Positions 1 to 9,453 of a stretch of 64,000 nucleotides of DNA are shown one piece after another. Below the pieces are notes generated by a model. The model did not search any database, was not told where the DNA came from, and saw only the letters and a list, made by a program, of their open reading frames with translations. The position numbers were made by a program, and so were the translations under genes. Every line of letters starts with the position of its first letter. Positions within the stretch are counted from its first letter, which is position 1. Location of the stretch: the NCBI GenBank assembly GCA_020846005.1, contig JADLEQ010000091.1, forward strand, positions 1 to 64,000, read 5' to 3'. This DNA is from Polyangiaceae bacterium (GTDB taxonomy: Bacteria; Myxococcota_A; Polyangia; Polyangiales; Polyangiaceae).

Positions 1-1
1 C

Positions 2-127
2 GGGGACAACATCACGATGACGATCGAGCTCATCACGACGGTCGCGCTCGAGGAGCAGATGCGTTTCGCCATCCGTGAGGGCGGCAAGACGGTCGGCGCG
101 GGCGTCGTCACCAAGATCCTGGAGTGA
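2..127 (+). CDS. tuf: elongation factor Tu, C-terminal end (partial)
   Basis: The reading frame entering at the left edge encodes the last 41 residues of EF-Tu, the GTPase that brings aminoacyl-tRNA to the ribosome. The end is typical of domain 3, with [14 protein letters not shown] and the terminal VVTKILE. The 5' part lies outside the window. It stops two bases before rpsJ, which is the usual str-to-S10 junction of a long translation superoperon. Known of the family: full proteins have about 395 residues. Identification is secure despite the short fragment. Confidence 0.95.
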
Positions 128-129
128 CC

Positions 130-441
130 ATGGCATCCACCACCAAGATTCGGATTCGGCTTCGCGCCTTCGATCACCAGCTCCTCGACAAGTCGACGAC
201 CGACATCGTCGACACCGCGAGGCGCACCGGCGCGCGCGTCGCCGGCCCCGTCCCCCTCCCGACCTCGATCCGCCGCTACACCGTCCTCCGTGGCCCGCAC
301 GTGGACAAGAAGTCGCGCGAGCAGTTCGAGGTCCGCACCCACCGCCGCCTGATCGATATCCTCGACCCGACGGCCCAGACCCTCGACGCCCTGATGAAGC
401 TGGACTTGTCGGCCGGCGTCGACGTCGAGATCAAGAGCTGA
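130..441 (+). CDS. rpsJ: 30S ribosomal protein S10 (uS10)
   Basis: A 103-residue protein of normal length with the S10 signatures [10 protein letters not shown] at the N-terminus and [20 protein letters not shown] in the middle. It sits in the small-subunit head and in many bacteria also serves as NusE in transcription antitermination. An in-frame GTG lies six bases upstream, but it overlaps the tuf stop and the ATG gives the conserved N-terminus. It is the first gene of the S10 cluster. The next gene is rplD, only 11 bases downstream, so rplC is absent from its usual slot. Confidence 0.97.
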
Positions 442-452
442 GGAGCCCATCG

Positions 453-1100
453 ATGCCCACTCTGGACGTATTCAATCTCCGACGGGAGAAGGTCGGCGAA
501 GTCGCCGTGGCGGACGAGGTGTTCGCCGCGGAGGTGAAGGAGCACCTCTTCCACGAGGTCGTCACCGCTCAGCTCGCCTCTCGCCGCGCGGGCACGCGCG
601 CCGCGAAGGAGCGCTCGGCGGTCGCGGGCTCCTCGCGCAAGCTCTTCAAGCAGAAGGGCACCGGTCGCGCACGCCACGGGTCGGCCCGGGCGCCGATCTA
701 CGTCGGCGGCGGCCGCGCCCACGCGCCGCGCCCGCAAGACTGGTCGCAGCGCCCCCCCCGGCGGGTGCGCATCGGGGCGCTCCGCAGCGCGCTGAGCCTC
801 CTCGTGCGCGAGGGCCGGCTCACGGTGGTCGACGCGTTCGACCTCGGAGAGACGAAGACGAAGAAGCTCGTCGGAGTCCTCTCCGCGCTCCAGGCGCCGA
901 AGAAGACGCTGGTCGTCGACGACCGCGGGAACGAGCACCTGGTGCTCTCGATCCGCAACGTGGACGGCTCGCAGTTCCTGCCCCCCGAAGGCGTCAACGT
1001 CTACGATCTGCTCCGGCACGACCACCTCGTCGTGTCGAAGAGCGCCCTCGAGGCGCTCGAGGCACGCTGCCTCGAGCGCGCACCGGAGCCGAAGTCATGA
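453..1100 (+). CDS. rplD: 50S ribosomal protein L4 (uL4)
   Basis: A 215-residue protein with the L4 core motif [12 protein letters not shown] followed by APIYVGGG and [10 protein letters not shown]4 binds 23S rRNA and sends a loop into the peptide exit tunnel; in enterobacteria it also represses its own operon. The start is the ATG at 453, preceded by a purine-rich GAGGAG; longer in-frame readings upstream run through rpsJ in another frame and are not real. The loop after GGG ([10 protein letters not shown]) differs from the more usual VAFGPKPR type. Its ATG is only 11 bases after rpsJ. The stop overlaps the rplW start. Confidence 0.95.
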
Positions 1101-1390
1101 GCCCCGAGCACGTCATCAAGCGCCCCGTGGCGCTCACCGAGAAGGCCTCGCGCCTGAAGACCGCCAACAAGGTCGTCTTCGAGGTGGCGGAGGCTGCCAA
1201 CAAGGTCCAGATCAAGAACGCCGTGGAGGAGCTCTTCGGGGTCGAGGTCGCGGACGTGAACACCCTGATCCAGCGCGGCAAGCCGAAGCGGATGGGGCGC
1301 GGCATGGCGCTCCGGAAGCGCTGGAAGAAGGCCATCGTGACGTTGCGCGAGGGCCACGACATTCAGTTCTTCAGCGAAGCGGAGGAGTGA
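1097..1390 (+). CDS. rplW: 50S ribosomal protein L23 (uL23)
   Basis: A 97-residue protein of the usual L23 length. It has the N-terminal [11 protein letters not shown] segment and the central VEVADVNTL and GKPKRMGR segments that contact 23S rRNA domain III. L23 sits at the tunnel exit and is the docking site for trigger factor and SRP. The ATG overlaps the rplD stop as ATGA, which indicates translational coupling. Its stop is one base before rplB. Confidence 0.95.
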
Positions 1391-1391
1391 G

Positions 1392-2222
1392 ATGGGCATT
1401 CGAACCACCAGGCCGACGTCTGCGGGCCGGCGCTTCTACACGGTCAGCGATTTCGCTGACGTGACGACCGACCGCCCGCTGAAGAAGCTCCTCGAGCCGA
1501 AACCCTCGACCGGCGGGCGCAACGCTCACGGGCGCATCACCAGCCGCTTCCGCGGCGGAGGCCACAAGCGCCGCTACCGCGTCATCGACTGGAAGCGCGA
1601 CAAGATCGGCGTCCCCGCGAAGGTCGCCCAGATCGAGTACGACCCCAACCGCACCGCGCGCATCGCGCTGCTCCACTACGCGGACGGCGAGAAGACGTAC
1701 ATCCTCGCGCCGGACGGCCTCAAGCAGGGGGACACCGTCGTCTCGAGTCGCAGCGCGGACATCAAGCCCGGCAACTGCCTTCCGCTGGAGCTCATCCCGG
1801 CCGGCACCATGGTGCACAACCTGGAGCTCAAGATCGGCAAGGGCGGTCAGCTCGTCCGCTCGGCGGGCGTCGCGGCGCAGCTCATGGCGAAGGACGGCGA
1901 CTGGGCTCAGGTGAAGCTGCCGAGCGGCGAGGTCCGGAAGCTCCACGTGCGCTGTCGCGCGACCGTCGGGCAGGTGTCCAACGGCGAGCACCAGAACATC
2001 AGCCTGGGCAAGGCGGGCCGTAAGCGCTGGCTCGGGAAGCGCCCGCACAACCGCGGCGTGACGATGAACCCGGTGGACCACCCGATGGGTGGCGGTGAGG
2101 GTCGCACGAGCGGCGGCCGGCACCCCTGCTCCCCCTGGGGCCAGCTCAGCAAGGGCCTGAAGACTCGGAACAACAAGCGGACGGACGTGATGATCGTGAA
2201 GAACCGCAAGGCGAAGGGCTGA
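1392..2222 (+). CDS. rplB: 50S ribosomal protein L2 (uL2)
   Basis: A 276-residue protein of standard length. The N-terminal half has [21 protein letters not shown], and the C-terminal half carries the conserved [19 protein letters not shown] loop near the peptidyl-transferase centre. L2 is needed for subunit association and peptide-bond formation. It follows rplW by one base and precedes rpsS by three, in the order known for S10 operons. Confidence 0.97.
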
Positions 2223-2225
2223 CCG

Positions 2226-2531
2226 ATGGCGCGCAGCGTGAAGAAGGGGCCGTTCATCGACGGCCACCTGATGAAGAAGATTGAGAAGGAGATGGCGGCT
2301 CCGAAGAAGACCGTCATCAAGACGTGGTCCCGCCGCTCGACGATCCTCCCCGAGGCGGTGGGGCTGACCTTCGCGGTCCACAACGGCCGCAAGTTCGTCC
2401 CCGTGTTCGTGAACGAGAACATGGTGGGCCACAAGCTCGGCGAGTTCGCGCCGACCCGTACCTTCCACGGCCACGCCGGCGACAAGAAGGGCCCGGGCAA
2501 GAAGGCGAACCCGACGACCGGCAAGCGCTGA
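2226..2531 (+). CDS. rpsS: 30S ribosomal protein S19 (uS19)
   Basis: A 101-residue protein with the S19 hallmarks [23 protein letters not shown] and [16 protein letters not shown]. It lies in the 30S head with S13 and touches tRNA and the intersubunit bridge. Normally rplV follows directly. Here the rightward cluster stops, with a strong hairpin 30 bases downstream and a leftward lipoprotein gene, before it resumes with rplV about 1.5 kb later. Confidence 0.97.
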
Positions 2532-2560
2532 GCTCGCGGAGCGGCGCCCCGGAGACACGA

Positions 2561-2587
2561 CGGCCCGCCGAGGTGCTCGGCGGGCCG
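2561..2587. terminator. 12-bp perfect hairpin between convergent genes
   Basis: CGGCCCGCCGAG and its exact complement CTCGGCGGGCCG are separated by three bases (GTG). The hairpin lies between the convergent ends of rpsS (stop at 2531) and the lipoprotein gene (stop at 2625), where a bidirectional terminator is expected. There is no T-run on either side, so its efficiency as an intrinsic terminator is uncertain. The stem is seen directly; the function is inferred. Confidence 0.6.
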
Positions 2588-2624
2588 CCTCCTGTTCACG
2601 CGGGGCCGCCTGCGCGGCCGGCGC

Positions 2625-3620
2625 TCACGGGTACCCGGCGTAGGCGTCGATGTTGTCGACGCACGCCCAGAAGTCCTCGTCACACGAGCTGCCGCTGACG
2701 GACGACTGGTACTGCGAGAAGCAGTAGAACATGTCGAGGCGCGTGCCGTCCGTGTAGAGGTCGATGTTGGACTGGCACTCCGCCGTCGCGACGCTGCTGC
2801 AGTTGGCGTTCACGTCCACGCAGTCGAACGTCCCCGCGTCGCCGCCGAAATCCACCGGCCCCGTGTCGCACACGTCCGCGACGACCAGGGCGGCGGTGCA
2901 GGCGCTCACGGCCGTGTCGTGCGCCGCGTCGCAGGGATCCCCGGTGATCGCCGAGATGCACAGGTAGAACGTCTCCCACGCTGCGGTGCGGCCATGGGCG
3001 GCCATGTAGTTGCAGGCGACGACGCCGGCGGGCGGCAGGCTGGCGCTGCCGCACGTCGCCGTCGCGTAGGACAGGCCCGCACACGTGAACGGCCCGACCC
3101 CGGTGCTGGTGTCGCCGAGGCAGCTCGCGCCGCCCGCGCCGCCGGCGCCCGCCGACCCGCTCGCCCCGGCCGTCCCGCCGGCGCCGGCCGTGCCGCTCGC
3201 GCCGGCCGTGCCGCTCGCGCCGGCCGTGCCGCCCGACCCTGCCGCGCCGCTGCCGCCGGCGCTCCCGCCCGACCCCGCAGCGCCGCTCGCACCGGAGGCG
3301 CCGCTCGCACCGGAGGCGCCGCTCGCACCCGACGCGCCGCTCGCGCCCGACGCGCCGCTCGCGCCCGACGCGCCGCTCGCGCCCGACGCGCCGCTGCTAC
3401 CGCTGGAGCCCGCCGTCCCCCCGGAGCCGCTCGCTCCGCTGGCCCCGGCGGAACCGCTCGAGCCGGAGCTGCCCGCGCTCCCGTCGCCGCCGGAGGTGCC
3501 CGCGGTCCCGGCGTCGTCCGTCGGGGTGTCGACCTCCTCGGTCGTGCACGCCGCGACGGCGGCCGCGGCGCCCACGAGGAGCGCGCTCAGCGAAAGAAAG
3601 CGGTCGAATTGCATCTTCAT
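2625..3620 (-). CDS. lipoprotein with collagen-like Gly-Ala-Ser repeats
   Basis: A 331-residue predicted lipoprotein. The start at 3620 is chosen because it gives a clean signal (MKMQFDRFLSLSALLVGAA, lipobox ending VAAC) and has GAGGAG eight bases upstream; the frame is open to 3692. Residues about 40-170 are triplet repeats with Gly at every third position (GAS, GTA, GSA types) and no proline. The C-terminal half is a compact domain with many cysteines (for example in FTCAG, TATCGS and CNYMAAHG), probably disulfide-bonded. Such Gly/Ser/Ala stalks followed by a Cys-rich domain are common in lipoproteins of Polyangia. No function can be assigned. It is transcribed against the ribosomal cluster and splits it. 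Confidence 0.85.
   Translation of the reverse strand: MKMQFDRFLSLSALLVGAAAAVAACTTEEVDTPTDDAGTAGTSGGDGSAGSSGSSGSAGASGASGSGGTAGSSGSSGASGASGASGASGASGASGASGASGASGASGASGASGAAGSGGSAGGSGAAGSGGTAGASGTAGASGTAGAGGTAGASGSAGAGGAGGASCLGDTSTGVGPFTCAGLSYATATCGSASLPPAGVVACNYMAAHGRTAAWETFYLCISAITGDPCDAAHDTAVSACTAALVVADVCDTGPVDFGGDAGTFDCVDVNANCSSVATAECQSNIDLYTDGTRLDMFYCFSQYQSSVSGSSCDEDFWACVDNIDAYAGYP
3280..3387 (-). repeat. 18-bp tandem repeat, six copies
   Basis: Six consecutive 18-bp units related to GCGCCGCTCGCGCCCGAC (as read on the + strand) encode two GAS triplets each within the lipoprotein stalk. Units differ by one to three bases, so the array probably grows and shrinks by slippage. It is coding, not a CRISPR array: there are no spacers. 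Confidence 0.85.
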
Positions 3621-4047
3621 GAAATGACTCCTCGAGGTGGAACGCTCGCGATTGCTCGCTTGGACGACTCCCGGGACCCCGGTCTTCACCACCGACCCGC
3701 GGGCGTGGCTGGCTCAGCCTGCCGACACCGCGGGCGTGACGCCCGAGGGTCCCATGACCCGCCAGCTCGGCTCGGCTAGCATACTCTCGCGCCGGGCTCC
3801 GAATTCCCCGCCCGAGCGGCCCGACCCGCGACCTCGAGCGCGCCTGGCCGCGCGTTCAGCAGCGCATTTCTCTTGCGATCGCTCGGCGCCCTGCTAGTCC
3901 TCCGCTCCCTTTCACCGCCGCGCGGGCCCGCACCCAGTGCCCCTGCACGGCGACGCCGGTCAGACCTCCGGGCCCGCCCGGAGCGTGACCAGCGCGGAAG
4001 GCGACCCCCGCTCGCTCGCGACCCGCGTCGCACCAGTGAGGCCCCTC
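3621..4047. other. divergent intergenic region, lipoprotein and rplV
   Basis: These 427 bases separate the starts of the leftward lipoprotein gene and rightward rplV. No open frame here looks like a protein. The region must hold the promoter that restarts the ribosomal cluster from rplV and the lipoprotein promoter. A small inverted repeat (CGGGCGT..ACGCCCG) lies near 3730-3745, and GCTAG elements occur at about 3775 and 3891, but I could not assign a convincing -35/-10 pair to either gene. Confidence 0.6.
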
Positions 4048-4389
4048 ATGATCAGTCAAGCCAAGGCCCGGTTCACCCGCATCTCGACCCGCAAGGCGCG
4101 GATGGTGATCGACCTCGTGCGCGGGCGGAACGCAGCCGAGGCGCTGCAGCTCCTCGAGTACACGCCGAAGGCCGCGGCGCCGATCGTGCGCAAGCTCATC
4201 GCCAGCGCCGTCGCGAACGCGAAGCAGGTCCAACCCAACTCCGACGCGGACGATTTCGTCATCAGCGTCGCCACGGTCGACAAGGCCTCCACCCAGCACC
4301 TGCGCCGCTGGCGTCCCCGCGCCATGGGGCGCGCGACGCGCGTCGAGAAGGGCGCGAGCCACATCTGCATCCAGCTCGACGAGACCTGA
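4048..4389 (+). CDS. rplV: 50S ribosomal protein L22 (uL22)
   Basis: A 113-residue protein. The start is the ATG at 4048, with GTGAGG about seven bases upstream; the frame is open further upstream, but only this start gives the normal length. Motifs are ARFTRISTRKARMVIDLVRG near the N-terminus and RRWRPRAMGRATRVEKGASHI near the C-terminus, which form the tunnel-lining beta hairpin. It opens the second part of the split cluster and so needs its own promoter. rpsC follows after 36 bases. Confidence 0.96.
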   Translation: MISQAKARFTRISTRKARMVIDLVRGRNAAEALQLLEYTPKAAAPIVRKLIASAVANAKQVQPNSDADDFVISVATVDKASTQHLRRWRPRAMGRATRVEKGASHICIQLDET

Positions 4390-4425
4390 GCTCCCCCCTC
4401 ATCCAACGCACCGAGAAACGGCACC

Positions 4426-5118
4426 ATGGGACAGAAGACTCATCCGTACGGCTTCCGCCTCGGCGTCATCAAGACGTGGACCAGCAAGTGGTACGAGGAC
4501 AAGCAGTACGTCCGCTGGCTGCACGAGGACATCCGCATCAAGCGAGCGGTGAAGGAGTACCTCTTCAACGCCAACGTGGCGAGCGTCGAGGTCGAGCGGG
4601 CTGCGAACAAGGCGAAGGTCATCGTCTACACGGCCCGCCCGGGCATGGTGATCGGCAAGGGCGGCCGCGGGATCGAGATCCTGAAGAGCGGCAACCTCGA
4701 CAGCGCGCAGAAGGGCGAGACGAAGTTCGCCGGCGTGCAGAGCTTCACGCAGAACGAGGTCTTCATCGACGTGCAGGAGGTCCGCAAGGCGGAGACGAAC
4801 GCGCAGCTCGTCGCGGAGAACGTCGCGACCCAGCTCGAGCGCCGCATCGCCTTCCGGCGCGCGATGAAGAAGGCGCTGACGACGGCGATGAAGTTCGGCG
4901 CCAAGGGCGTCCGCATCCGCTGCGCGGGGCGGCTCGGCGGGGCCGAGATCGCTCGCGTCGAGACGTATCGTGAAGGTCGCGTCCCCCTGCACACGCTGCG
5001 GGCCGACGTCGACTTCGGGCTCGCCGAGGCGCGCACCACCTACGGGGTGATCGGCGTCAAGGTGTGGATCTTCAAGGGCGAGGTCCTGCAGCGCAAGGCC
5101 CGCCACGCCGCGGAGTGA
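4426..5118 (+). CDS. rpsC: 30S ribosomal protein S3 (uS3)
   Basis: A 230-residue protein, typical for S3. It has [13 protein letters not shown] at the N-terminus, the KH-domain [15 protein letters not shown] (about residues 73-87) and the C-terminal domain with [13 protein letters not shown]. It lies at the mRNA entry channel of the 30S subunit and contributes to helicase activity. Its usual partner rplP follows after six bases. Confidence 0.97.
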
Positions 5119-5124
5119 TCCGAA

Positions 5125-5538
5125 ATGCTCTCCCCCAAGCGCACCAAGTTCCGTAAGCAACAGAAGGGCCGCAACCGCGGCGTCGCCTGGCGTGGTTCCG
5201 ATGTCTCCTTCGGGGACTTCGCGCTCCAGGCGGTCGCGCCGTCGCGCCTCACGGCACGGCAGATCGAGGCGGGGCGTATGGCGATCCAGCGCCACGTCAA
5301 GCGCCAAGGCAAGCTGTGGATCCGGGTGTTCCCGGACAAGCCGGTGACGAAGAAGCCGCTCGAGGTCCGCATGGGTAGCGGCAAGGGTGCGGTCGAGCTG
5401 TGGGTGGCGCTCGTCAAGCCCGGCCGCGTCATCTTCGAGATGGCCGGCGTGCCGGAGAAGCTCGCGCGCGAGGCGTTCGCCCTCGCGGCCTCCAAGCTGC
5501 CGGTCGAGACCCGCGTGCTCGTCAGGAGTGAGCTCTGA
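5125..5538 (+). CDS. rplP: 50S ribosomal protein L16 (uL16)
   Basis: A 137-residue protein of standard length, with [16 protein letters not shown] at the start and the [19 protein letters not shown] block. L16 sits near the A and P sites and helps place aminoacyl-tRNA. The [18 protein letters not shown] segment is conserved. The stop overlaps the rpmC ATG by one base. Confidence 0.97.
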
Positions 5539-5762
5539 TGAATGCCAAGGATCTGCGTGAGCGACCCGAACAGGAGCTCCTCGAGCTCCGCACGAGCCTG
5601 CGGAAGGATCTCTTCGGGTACCGGATGAAGAACGGCGTCAAGCAGCTGGCCGACACCAGCCTGCTGCGGAAGACGCGGCGCGATCTCGCGCGGATCGAGT
5701 CGATCCTGGGCGAGCGTTCCAAGGCGGCCGCGAGCGCAGCGGCGAAGGGAGCCGAGTCGTGA
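5538..5762 (+). CDS. rpmC: 50S ribosomal protein L29 (uL29)
   Basis: A 74-residue protein with the L29 pattern [26 protein letters not shown] and the C-terminal helix with [16 protein letters not shown]29 sits by the tunnel exit next to L23. The alanine-rich tail after residue 62 is a little longer than in E. coli (63 residues). It is coupled to rplP upstream, and its stop overlaps the GTG start of rpsQ. Confidence 0.93.
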
Positions 5763-6064
5763 GCGACACCAGTTCCGCAGCGGCGCCGTCCGCCGCGACC
5801 CAGCCGACGCGCCGCCGCATGGTCGGGCGCGTGGCGAGCGACAAGATGGACAAGACGGTCGTGGTCGAGGTCGTCCGCTACAAGCTCGACCCGGTCTACC
5901 GGAAGTACGTCCGGGCTCGCACCCGCTACAAGGCGCACGACGAGAAGAACGAGTATCGCGTGGGCGACCGCGTCGAGATCGTGGAGCACCGCCCCCTCAG
6001 CAGGGAGAAGCGCTGGAAGGTGGCCCGGCTCGTGGAGCGCGCGGAGCGGGAGGGCGGCCAATGA
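5759..6064 (+). CDS. rpsQ: 30S ribosomal protein S17 (uS17)
   Basis: A 101-residue S17. The conserved OB-fold part starts around residue 20 ([20 protein letters not shown]) and includes [19 protein letters not shown] and KRWKV. S17 binds 16S rRNA early in 30S assembly. The GTG start overlaps the rpmC stop (GTGA), and about 20 Ala/Ser-rich residues precede the conserved core, which is longer than usual. The stop overlaps the rplN ATG. Confidence 0.94.
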
Positions 6065-6429
6065 TCCAGATGCAGACGTTCCTGGACATCGCCGACAACT
6101 CCGGCGCGCGGCTCGTCCAGTGCATCAAGGTCCTGGGCGGGTCCCAGCGTCGATACGCCGGGCTGGGCGACGTGATCGTGGTCGCGATCAAGGAGGCCCT
6201 GCCGGGCAGCAAGGTCAAGAAGGGTGACACCGCCAAGGCGGTCGTGGTCCGGACGACCCGCGAGTACCGGCGGCCCGACGGCAGCTACATCAAGTTCGAC
6301 GACAACTCCGCCGTGCTGATCAACGCGCAGATGGAGCCGGTGGGGACGCGCATCTTTGGCCCCGTCGCCCGCGAGCTCCGCGGCAAGCGCTTCATGAAGA
6401 TCATCTCGCTCGCTCCGGAGGTGCTGTGA
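6061..6429 (+). CDS. rplN: 50S ribosomal protein L14 (uL14)
   Basis: A 122-residue protein, exactly the usual L14 length. Motifs are [28 protein letters not shown] and the C-terminal [13 protein letters not shown] with [12 protein letters not shown]14 forms intersubunit bridges and is the binding site for the silencing factor RsfS. It overlaps rpsQ upstream by four bases and rplX downstream by one. Confidence 0.97.
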
Positions 6430-6740
6430 TGGCGAGGCTCAGGAAGGGCGATCAGGTCGTAGTGATGCGCGGCGAGCACAAGGGCGCCCGCGGCGCCGTC
6501 CAGCGAGTGCTCGAGGAGCGCGGGCTCGTCGTCATCGAGGGCGTGAACCAGGTGAAGCGCCACGTGAAGGCCGGCCCGCAACGCGGAGGCGGGATCCTCG
6601 AGATGGAGGCCCCGCTCCCGGCGAGCAAGGTCATGCTGGTCGACCCGGTGACGGGGAAGCCGACCCGCGTCCGGCGGCGAGTCGAAGAAGGCAAGAAGGT
6701 GCGCGTCGCCAAGAGCGGCGCCGTGATCCAGGGCAACTGA
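6429..6740 (+). CDS. rplX: 50S ribosomal protein L24 (uL24)
   Basis: A 103-residue L24 with the KOW motif near the N-terminus ([20 protein letters not shown]). The middle [12 protein letters not shown] and C-terminal [20 protein letters not shown] segments are typical. L24 is an assembly initiator of the large subunit. The ATG at 6429 overlaps the rplN stop; an in-frame GTG three bases earlier is less likely. Confidence 0.96.
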
Positions 6741-6741
6741 C

Positions 6742-7305
6742 ATGAGCGAAGCTGCCGAAGTCCAGGAGCCGCGCCTCAGCGTGGCGTACCGCGAGAAGGC
6801 CACCCCGGCGCTGATGAAGCGCTTCGGCTATCGCAACCCGATGCAGGTGCCGCGGCTCAGCAAGATCGTGATCAACATGGGGCTCGGCGAGGCCGTCTCC
6901 AACCCGAAGATCATCGACGCCGCGGTCACGGAGCTCACCGCCCTCGCGGGCCAGAAGCCGGTCGTCACCCGCGCGAAGAAGTCGATCGCGACCTTCAAGC
7001 TGCGCGAGAAGATGCCCATCGGCGCGATGGTCACGCTCCGCCGCGGACGCATGTGGGAGTTCCTCGACCGCCTGGTGACCCTCGCCCTGCCGCGGGTGCG
7101 CGACTTCCGCGGGACCAACCCGCGCGGCTTCGACGGCGCGGGCAACTACACGCTGGGGCTGAAGGAGCACACCGTCTTCCCCGAGATCAATTTCGACAGG
7201 GTCGAGCACATGAAGGGGATGAACATCACGTTCGTCACCACGGCCGAGACGAACGAGGAAGCGAAGGAGCTCCTCGCCCAGCTCGGCATGCCGTTCAGGA
7301 GCTGA
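6742..7305 (+). CDS. rplE: 50S ribosomal protein L5 (uL5)
   Basis: A 187-residue L5 of normal size. Signatures are [11 protein letters not shown], the [25 protein letters not shown] loop that contacts tRNA and 5S rRNA, and [23 protein letters not shown]5 binds 5S rRNA in the central protuberance. The gene lies one base after rplX and six bases before rpsN. Confidence 0.97.
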
Positions 7306-7311
7306 GAACAG

Positions 7312-7497
7312 ATGGCACGCGCTTCTCAATGGGCGAAGCTGAACCGCCCCCCCAAGTTCTCGACGCGCGCGGTAACGCGCTGCCACCGATGCGGCCGCTC
7401 GCGGGCGGTGTACCGGGATTTCAAGCTCTGTCGGGTGTGTCTGCGCGAGCTCGGGCTGCGCGGAGAGCTCCCCGGCGTCACCAAGGCGAGCTGGTGA
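7312..7497 (+). CDS. rpsN: 30S ribosomal protein S14, zinc-binding type (uS14)
   Basis: A 61-residue S14 of the short, zinc-ribbon type. Four cysteines form CHRCG and CRVCLREL, as in the C+ form. The end [11 protein letters not shown] is the standard S14 terminus. It packs in the 30S head near S3 and S10. The zinc ligands are all present, so this organism does not appear to use a zinc-free copy at this locus. Confidence 0.96.
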
Positions 7498-7504
7498 GGT
7501 TGGC

Positions 7505-7906
7505 ATGGTGACCGATCCGATCGCCGACCTGCTCGCACGCATCCGCAACGCGGCGCTCGCGCGCCACGAGGTGGCTCGCATGCCCGCCAGCAAGCTCAAG
7601 CTGCGCATCCTCGAGATCCTGAAGAAGGAAGGCTTCGTCGCCGACGTTCGTCAGGAGGAGTGGGGCGAGAGCAAGCGCCAGACCCTCACCGTCACCCTGA
7701 AGTACGCCCGCGAGCGCGGCGCGGCCTTCCAGGGGCTGCGCCGAGTCTCTCGGCCAGGGCGCCGAGTCTACGTGCGCCACGACCAGATCCCGCGCGTACT
7801 CTCCGGCCTGGGGATCTCGATCTTGAGCACCTCGCTCGGGCTGATGACCGACCGCGAGGCACGCCAGCGCAAGGTGGGCGGCGAGCTCCTCTGCGAGGTG
7901 TGGTGA
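7505..7906 (+). CDS. rpsH: 30S ribosomal protein S8 (uS8)
   Basis: A 133-residue S8. It begins MVTDPIADLLARIRNA and has the C-terminal GLGISILSTSLGLMTDREAR and GELLCEVW typical of the family. S8 binds the central domain of 16S rRNA; in E. coli it is the translational repressor of the spc operon. The stop TGA overlaps the ATG of rplF. Confidence 0.97.
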   Translation: MVTDPIADLLARIRNAALARHEVARMPASKLKLRILEILKKEGFVADVRQEEWGESKRQTLTVTLKYARERGAAFQGLRRVSRPGRRVYVRHDQIPRVLSGLGISILSTSLGLMTDREARQRKVGGELLCEVW

Positions 7907-8493
7907 TGACCCAGCTGGCGACGCCCACGGCGGGCAAGCAGTCTCGTCTCGGCAAGCGGCCCATCCCGATCCCGAAGGGCGTCACCGTCACGCTCGGGGC
8001 GGATCGAGTGGACGTCCAGGGTCCGAAGGGCAAGCTCGGGATCGTGCTGCCGCCGTCGGTCAGCCTGGCGCGGGAGGGCGACACGATCACGGTCACCAGC
8101 AGCGCGACGGAGCGCGACGGCCGCCGCCTCCAGGGGCTCGGTCGGGCGCTCGTCGCGAGCCTCGTGCAGGGCGCCGCGGTCGGGTTCGAGCGGACGCTCG
8201 AGCTCCACGGCACCGGCTATCGCGCTGAGCTGAAGGGGCGCTCGCTCCACCTGCAGCTCGGCTTCTCGCACCCGACCGTCTACGAGATCCCGGCGGAGCT
8301 CACCTGCACCATCCCGCCCGAGTCCAAGGGCACGCTGATCATCCTGACTTCGGCCAACAAGTCGCTCCTCGGGCAGGTCGCGGCGGATTTGCGGGGCGTC
8401 CGCCCGGCGGAGCCGTACGGCGGCAAGGGCGTCCGGTATCGAGGCGAAACCATCCGCCGCAAGGCGGGCAAGGCCGGCAAGGGCCGGAAGTGA
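7906..8493 (+). CDS. rplF: 50S ribosomal protein L6 (uL6)
   Basis: A 195-residue L6. The first 15 residues ([15 protein letters not shown]) are an extra tail before the conserved [13 protein letters not shown]. The family signature near the C-terminus ([20 protein letters not shown]) is present. L6 stabilises the base of the stalk region near the factor-binding site. The start is the ATG overlapping the rpsH stop. Confidence 0.96.
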
Positions 8494-8506
8494 ACGGAGG
8501 CGATCG

Positions 8507-8866
8507 ATGAGCGCACGGCTCCAGGGGCGCGCGCGGCGGAAGCTGCGCATCAGGCGCAAGATCAACGGCACCGCGGAGCGCCCGCGGCTCACCGTGTTTC
8601 GGAGCGCCCGTCACATCTACGCGCAGGTCGTGGACGATGCGCGCGGCGTCACCGTCGCGCACGCGTCCACCCTCTCCAACGACCTGGCGACCACGCTCTC
8701 CGAGGACGACAAGACGGCCGCCGCGCGCAAGGTCGGCGCGCTGATCGCCCGAGTCTGCCTCGAGCGGAAGATCGACAAGGTCGTCTTCGACCGCAATGGT
8801 TACCTCTACCACGGCAGGGTGAAGGCACTCGCCGAGGCCGCCCGCGAGGCGGGCCTTCAGTTCTGA
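8507..8866 (+). CDS. rplR: 50S ribosomal protein L18 (uL18)
   Basis: A 119-residue L18 with [24 protein letters not shown] and the C-terminal [26 protein letters not shown]. It binds 5S rRNA with L5. The ATG has GGAGG about ten bases upstream. rpsE follows after 23 bases. Confidence 0.96.
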
Positions 8867-8889
8867 ATCGGCCCAGGAACGGACCTCCC

Positions 8890-9453
8890 ATGGACAACTT
8901 CGACGAAGAGAAACTGAAGGAGCGCGTGGTTCACATCAACCGCGTCGCCAAGGTCGTGAAGGGCGGGCGTCGGTTCAGCTTCGCGGCGCTGGTGGTCGTG
9001 GGCGACGAGGCCGGCTGGGTCGGCGTCGGGCTCGGCAAGGCGAACGAGGTGCCCGAGGCGATCCGCAAGGGCAACGACCAGGCGCGGAAGAACCTGTTCA
9101 AGGTGCCCATGATCGGCGCCACCGTACCCCACACGGTGATCGGTGAGTTCGGCGCGGGTCGGGTCCTGCTCCGTCCGGCGGCCCCCGGCACGGGCGTCAT
9201 CGCCGGTGGGGCGGTGCGCGCGGTGGTGGAGTCCGCAGGGATCCAGGACGTATTGAGCAAGTGTCTGGGCTCCTCGAACAAGTACAACGTCGTCAACGCG
9301 ACCCTCGCCGCGCTCCGGGCGCTGCGCGCCCCGGAGGCGATCGCGGCGGCTCGCGATCTCGAGCTGGACGCCGTGCTCCACGGCTACCCCGTGCTGGCGA
9401 TGTCGACGCGTCCGACGCGCCAGGCCGCGGTGCCGGAGGGAGGTGCGACGTGA
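8890..9453 (+). CDS. rpsE: 30S ribosomal protein S5 (uS5)
   Basis: A 187-residue S5. The double-stranded-RNA-binding N-terminal domain has [27 protein letters not shown], and the following [15 protein letters not shown] and [14 protein letters not shown] are family signatures. S5 takes part in decoding fidelity and mRNA unwinding. The C-terminal 20 residues are longer than in E. coli. The stop overlaps the GTG start of rpmD. Confidence 0.97.

Follow-up and report, generated by a model that had tools for sequence, protein, structure and literature searches.

The S10 ribosomal cluster is among the most conserved gene clusters in bacteria and forms a near-universal operon. In its canonical order rplV follows rpsS directly on the same strand, and rplC lies between rpsJ and rplD. 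In the DNA analysed here (the window, 64,000 nucleotides from the start of contig JADLEQ010000091.1 of the Polyangiaceae bacterium assembly GCA_020846005.1), rpsS and rplV are parted by a leftward gene for a collagen-like lipoprotein. Is this gene an isolated insertion into an otherwise intact operon, or is the joint between rpsS and rplV a place at which the operon has come apart in a wider group of relatives? The features needed for the discussion are the following.

130-2531, plus strand: rpsJ, rplD, rplW, rplB and rpsS, the first half of the S10 cluster, without rplC
2226-2531, plus strand: rpsS (S19), the end of the first half (PF00203, E 2.4e-37)
2561-2587, no strand assigned: hairpin of 12 pairs with a 3-base loop, located where rpsS and the lipoprotein gene converge (sequence reading)
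2625-3620, minus strand: lipoprotein gene, 331 amino acids (sequence, Pfam, alignment and structure model)
3621-4047, no strand assigned: spacer of 427 bases from which the lipoprotein gene and rplV diverge (sequence)
3872-3896, plus strand: promoter-like site CTTG-N16-TGCTA before rplV (motif scan of rplV-upstream regions)
3907-4047, plus strand: putative 5' leader of rplV, strongly folded (fold z -2.78)
4048-4389, plus strand: rplV (L22), the start of the second half (PF00237, E 1.5e-29)
4426-6429, plus strand: rpsC, rplP, rpmC, rpsQ and rplN, the second half, continuing downstream (sequence and gene order)

The window runs from the end of tuf (recognised by reading) through rpsJ-rplD-rplW-rplB-rpsS, the leftward gene and rplV-rpsC-rplP-rpmC-rpsQ-rplN into the spc genes. 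It departs from the canonical order at two points, while the remaining S10 gene order is retained. Between the tblastn matches of rpsS and rplV there are 1519 bases and one reverse gene, and rplC is missing after rpsJ, where rplD starts 12 bases further on (gap at 442-452). The L3 gene (rplC) of this genome is found on contig C41 (locus L196, 1393-2055), divergent from an L19-like gene, and all of the 62 family and 10 order stretches compared likewise leave no room for it between rpsJ and rplD. The preliminary description of this DNA had placed a leftward collagen-like lipoprotein gene between rpsS and rplV, a 12-bp hairpin 3' of rpsS and a 427-base region upstream of rplV, and each of these elements is confirmed at the coordinates given above. 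The hairpin region (2545-2605) folds better than all of 200 shuffles on either strand, with z of -3.66 on the plus and -4.50 on the minus strand. The hairpin is terminator-like yet carries no T run, and it is not among the sites of a consensus terminator scan of the window, which picked out just one site, a weak one at 3852-3865. Inspection of the insert by eye showed no transposase.

In order to place the arrangement among relatives, 193 genomes (the window's own and those of its genus, family, order and class) were searched for S19 and L22, and the places of the two were compared using about 150 listed matches for each, out of 168 and 174 genomes. The family count is based on the 90 genomes of the family (f1, whose named members are Polyangiaceae such as Sorangium and Minicystis) with a listed S19, for which 12 places of rplV were added by hand. 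In 57 of these 90 the two genes are at least 0.7 kb apart, part of the separations being between different contigs of draft genomes: 20 have a gap of 0.7-40 kb, in 31 the genes are on separate contigs and one side has 5 kb or more of other sequence, and in 6 they lie megabases apart on one contig. Gaps below 150 bases occur in only 2 of the 90 and gaps of 150-700 bases in 12, and the other 19 have no assignable distance (14 with different contigs and too little sequence, 5 with rplV unlisted). Among the matches listed for the order outside the family, the gap is below 200 bases in 34 of 44 placed genomes, the rest comprising 5 at 200-999 bases, 1 above 5 kb and 4 on different contigs; for class relatives it is below 200 bases in 5 of 7 placed among those listed. 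The open joint is thus neither the rare single insertion that had been proposed, since most placed family members have it and in 25 genomes from 13 genera a lipoprotein homologue stands divergently before rplV, nor an arrangement ordinary to all Myxococcota, since 39 of the 51 listed and placed order and class relatives keep the genes less than 200 bases apart.

The locus and its surroundings were compared in stretches from 69 genomes of the family and 11 of the order, out of the 193. One genome, G087, is counted twice in the 80 regions and the 79 tree tips that they provide, and one stretch (L123) repeats part of G007. G087 itself carries two S10 clusters with different inserts on contigs C54 and C82 (L059, L060), which may reflect either a duplicated cluster or a bin of mixed origin. 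The eight remaining junctions between rpsJ and rplN were all found joined in the 62-69 family stretches available per junction, the rplP-rpsQ distance including rpmC, and every missing neighbour coincides with the end of a stretch. The break is therefore confined to rpsS/rplV in the sampled stretches. Named genomes were also scanned with an alignment of L22, flanks of up to 10 kb being counted from the rplV side, and the result illustrates the variety at this joint. Of the best 80 out of 288 loci, 18 show nothing but a spacer, 9 carry the lipoprotein gene directly divergent from rplV and 7 have other genes between rpsS and rplV; a further 22 show no rpsS within 10 kb, including L198 with a lipoprotein gene near rplV, and 24 are at a contig end.

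A second half of the operon that is parted from the first would need a start of its own, and the preliminary description had held that transcription must begin anew before rplV. The 600 bases before rplV were scanned for motifs in the 80 regions, the window included. The strict form CTTG-N15..18-TGCTA is present in 32 of 80 regions as against a mean of 0.1 and a maximum of 1 in shuffles, a control that is after the fact because the motif was first seen by eye in the same sequences. It does not occur at all on the reverse strand (0 matches). A looser form matches 48 of 80 regions, where shuffles average 1.5 and reach 4 at most; a third form matches 19 of 80, with 5.5 and 12 as the corresponding shuffle values, and the first pattern tried, which had a wrong spacer length, matched none of the 80. 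A scan of 2500-4100 of the window with the standard sigma-70 consensus returned no promoter. With CTTG-N16-TGCTA at 3872-3896, a form so frequent in the upstream regions of relatives, a new promoter before rplV is very probable; this site would be the rplV promoter, with a transcription start near 3907. Genomes with the strict site include those in which rpsS is still the neighbour (G001, G043, G046), those with the lipoprotein gene in between and those with a distant rpsS, a distribution that suggests that the promoter-like site is older than the lipoprotein gene.

In many relatives a further element, CCGU-AACG-GC ... GGU-ACG-ACGG around a variable stem, is found between the promoter-like site and rplV. 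In an alignment of 18 such leaders, 90.5% of cells pair and two-sided changes are seen in 10 of 14 pairs, with a covariation of 0.510 as against 0.174 in shuffled and at most 0.135 in slid alignments. In another family (f8) UCCU/AGGA replaces CCGU/ACGG and the inner loop is unchanged. Searched against the 80 stretches, the leader model gives 38 matches at E<=1 and 25 at E<=0.01; 18 of these 25 are the training set and the other 7 all lie directly before rplV. Across 282 genomes of the phylum at least 8 genomes are matched, a lower bound because the phylum was sampled evenly and the filters were strict, and all 8 belong to the same family with one place each; 6 of them are training genomes, and in the other 2 the match is again directly before rplV. 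This structure may be a new ribosomal-protein feedback element. In the window genome the leader model gave no match above chance, either before rplV or at any other place; the leader RNA thus supports the general model without being part of the window locus. No Rfam family matches the leader: a scan of 1-9000 of the window gave no match, and in seven stretches of relatives the two hits obtained scored below the gathering threshold and lay away from the leader. A different conserved leader end is seen in several relatives from the window's group (for example L052, L053, L060), where CGACNNGTC ... GAAACTGTCG directly precedes the start codon and forms a small hairpin that may hide the ribosome-binding site. 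The window does not carry this leader end.

The lipoprotein gene has a distribution of its own. A profile of its C-terminal domain matches 37 of 193 genomes, 36 of them in the family and one, a weak match, outside (G127, E 7.6e-6). In 24 of the 36 the gene lies directly upstream of rplV in divergent orientation, and counting G022, where a truncated copy lies between, the divergent pair is found in 25 genomes from 13 genera. For the other 11, the contig ends there in G092, and in 10 either the best match is on a different contig or no rplV was located. The window gene shares both properties of the pair, the homologous Cys-rich domain and the divergent position adjoining rplV. The pair is kept even where rpsS is far away (G033, G056, G077, G086, G093).

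Of the 21 splits in the lipoprotein tree, 8 recur in the ribosomal-protein tree, compared with a mean of 0.18 and a maximum of 2 for random labels, and the common splits include the deep one that separates the window's group from the Sorangium-Polyangium group; 13 of the 21 splits are not common to the two. On the 79-tip tree, from which G101 and G075 were omitted as having too little sequence, the trait of a lipoprotein gene facing rplV requires 8 changes against a shuffled mean of 20.8. Because of this tree agreement and the few changes, the window gene most probably descended together with rplV, the gene having been lost several times. The window's genus has one other sampled member, G001, in which a 344-base spacer with no gene separates rpsS from rplV and the genome holds no match to the lipoprotein profile. 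This state could reflect a deletion by which rpsS came to lie close again, or a separate gain of the gene, and part of the ribosomal-protein tree is uncertain, since G000 and G001 are not placed as sisters. The proposal that the insert could serve as a lineage marker holds to the extent that the lipoprotein-rplV pair marks one part of the family, and fails at finer scale owing to losses such as that seen in G001 within the genus itself.

Taken together, these sequence comparisons make it quite likely that the S10 cluster of the family was converted into two transcription units at the rpsS/rplV joint and that the linkage of the two then decayed. The downstream half, rplV-rpsC-rplP-rpmC-rpsQ-rplN, would be started by its own promoter before rplV, followed in many relatives by the structured leader RNA, and the first half would end at the hairpin. 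With co-transcription no longer needed, the halves could have separated repeatedly at this single joint, presumably passing from a bare spacer of 150-700 bases through inserted genes to megabase separation. The lipoprotein gene would have settled divergently before rplV in an ancestor common to much of the family, and since then would have been kept with rplV and not with rpsS. The window would represent the simplest stage at which the gene is present, namely rpsS, lipoprotein gene, rplV. A more elaborate version, that the promoter and the new class of leader RNA made the rplV half self-regulating and so licensed the repeated break-up, with the lipoprotein co-regulated through the shared spacer, is considerably less likely and should be taken as tentative.

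Other explanations of the locus can be weighed against the conversion into two transcription units. If a surface-protein gene had recently and privately entered an otherwise intact S10 cluster, one would see a single gene between rpsS and rplV and a congener without it, as is indeed the case in the window and in G001; yet homologues face rplV in 24 other genomes from 12 other genera, the lipoprotein tree partly follows the ribosomal proteins and the promoter-like site occurs also without the lipoprotein gene, which leaves such a recent event very unlikely. That the locus is an artefact of assembly or binning might be suspected from the draft state of the window genome (119 contigs) and from the many relatives that are metagenome bins. 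It is, however, extremely improbable, as the window contig continues on both sides of the locus and the same arrangement or a wider separation is found in independent assemblies, including single-contig chromosomes. More room must be given to the idea that the lipoprotein gene and rplV are kept together by a shared divergent promoter region that couples an envelope lipoprotein to ribosome synthesis. The pair remains divergent in 25 genomes while rpsS and other neighbours change, and its spacers measure 286-884 bases. Nevertheless, the lipoprotein-side promoter pattern that was tried matched just 1 of 24 spacers, the pair is missing from other family members that have rplV, and plain inheritance of neighbours could suffice, so that such coupling appears somewhat doubtful.

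The megabase separations raise the question of whether the split was driven by inversions around the replication origin that break at this joint and not by changes in transcription. Taking dnaA as our stand-in for the origin, four of the six chromosomes with megabase separation fit an inversion around it, in that one half is located on each side at a distance of 0.7-1.9 Mb and both are read outwards. The positions of rpsS and rplV are +1.11 and -1.94 Mb in G077, +1.70 and -1.93 Mb in G086, +1.51 and -1.77 Mb in G093, and -0.68 and +1.14 Mb in G039. In G033, however, both halves are on one arm (rpsS +2.49, rplV +0.96 Mb), and G056 is not symmetrical (rpsS +5.05, rplV +1.30 Mb, with rplV reading inwards). 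The cases at 0.7-40 kb (20 of 90) resemble stepwise insertion instead, and a repeated break at one joint needs a reason for that joint being tolerated. Inversions as the driving cause are accordingly judged unlikely, and they can act together with the conversion into two transcription units. Contig C1 of G021 holds eleven near-identical places of equal weak similarity to the ATPase part of DnaA (1.0e-10, 334-aa frames), which by eye resemble the helper ATPase of an IS21-type element.

The closest published parallel is that of Gammaproteobacteria, where, according to the available text of Brandis 2021 (PMC8046335), insertions at rpoBC-str and str-S10 are followed by descendants in which the parts are fully disconnected, and gene insertion is suggested to relax selection for linkage in the ribosomal super-cluster. 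The joints described there are between operons, with one within the rpoBC operon (rplL-rsmC), whereas the Polyangiaceae break is inside the S10 operon, is repeated across a family and has a conserved promoter-like site at the joint. Neither Myxo, Sorangium nor Deltaproteobacteria occurs as a term in that available text. In spirochetes, as far as the available text of PMC2481283 describes them, S10-spc-alpha genes have moved elsewhere in Borrelia and Treponema and Leptospira keeps the locus; single genes have moved there, whereas in Polyangiaceae a single cut in the S10 operon leaves two intact blocks. The leader RNA resembles the r-leaders of Eckert and Weinberg 2020 (PMC7247131) in that its structure covaries, stands immediately before ribosomal-protein genes and is narrow in lineage. 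In the available version of that article, Table 1 lists no r-leader starting at rplV and L22 goes unmentioned in the main text, the nearest entry being a borderline L2 leader before rplB-rpsS-rplV-rpsC in Alphaproteobacteria. Unlike those r-leaders, the rplV structure was found in the relatives of the window and not in the window itself. In the open-access literature searched, no title or abstract was found to treat the rpsS/rplV split. Operon break-up is usually visible only as a before and an after. Here one family holds a series at one joint, from close genes through a spacer with the site, one gene and many genes to megabases, and since it holds the whole series, the order of events (promoter first, separation later) is directly testable.

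The family also provides a single-copy lipoprotein whose gene stays beside ribosomal genes, and the features of this protein merit description. Its signal peptide ends in VAAC at residues 22-25, which we take to be the lipobox, and Cys25 is invariant in 7 aligned sequences, in line with a lipoprotein having its cysteine near residue 25. A collagen-like GAS repeat of Gly-X-Y type follows at residues ~33-180, with a match to Pfam Collagen (PF01391) whose best stretch covers residues 38-92 (E 1.3e-10). The Gly-X-Y repeat is common to Pfam Collagen and to the collagen-like adhesins SclA/SclB and Lcl of NCBIfam. Identity as an adhesin of the Scl type was considered and rejected, as the window protein scores 44.6, 44.5 and 35.2 bits against these families, far below the curated cut-offs of 325, 400 and 500.

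In relatives the collagen-like repeat is replaced by other Gly-rich linkers, and the part in common is the Cys-rich, helical C-terminal domain (residues ~160-331). The profile of this domain matches the window protein at E 9.9e-54, the protein being itself one of the 7 profile rows, and the identity to the other rows is 28-42% by one count and 19-42% by another. No sequence match of the domain was found in PDB. Its structure model is confident (pLDDT 87.0, pTM 0.80), and searches with it gave no helpful match, with a best Foldseek E of 7.8 and a best VIA-align Z of 2.8 among 35 chains. The window genome contains one clear copy of the gene. A second match to the domain there (L092, contig C86) is weak (E 0.021) and has an internal stop. 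Another gene is seen in the divergent position next to rplV in G006, G045, G047, G051 and G073, where the neighbour looks by eye like a formylglycine-generating enzyme (L163, L081, L142, L167, L173); a related gene adjoins the lipoprotein gene in G077 and is three genes away in G015.
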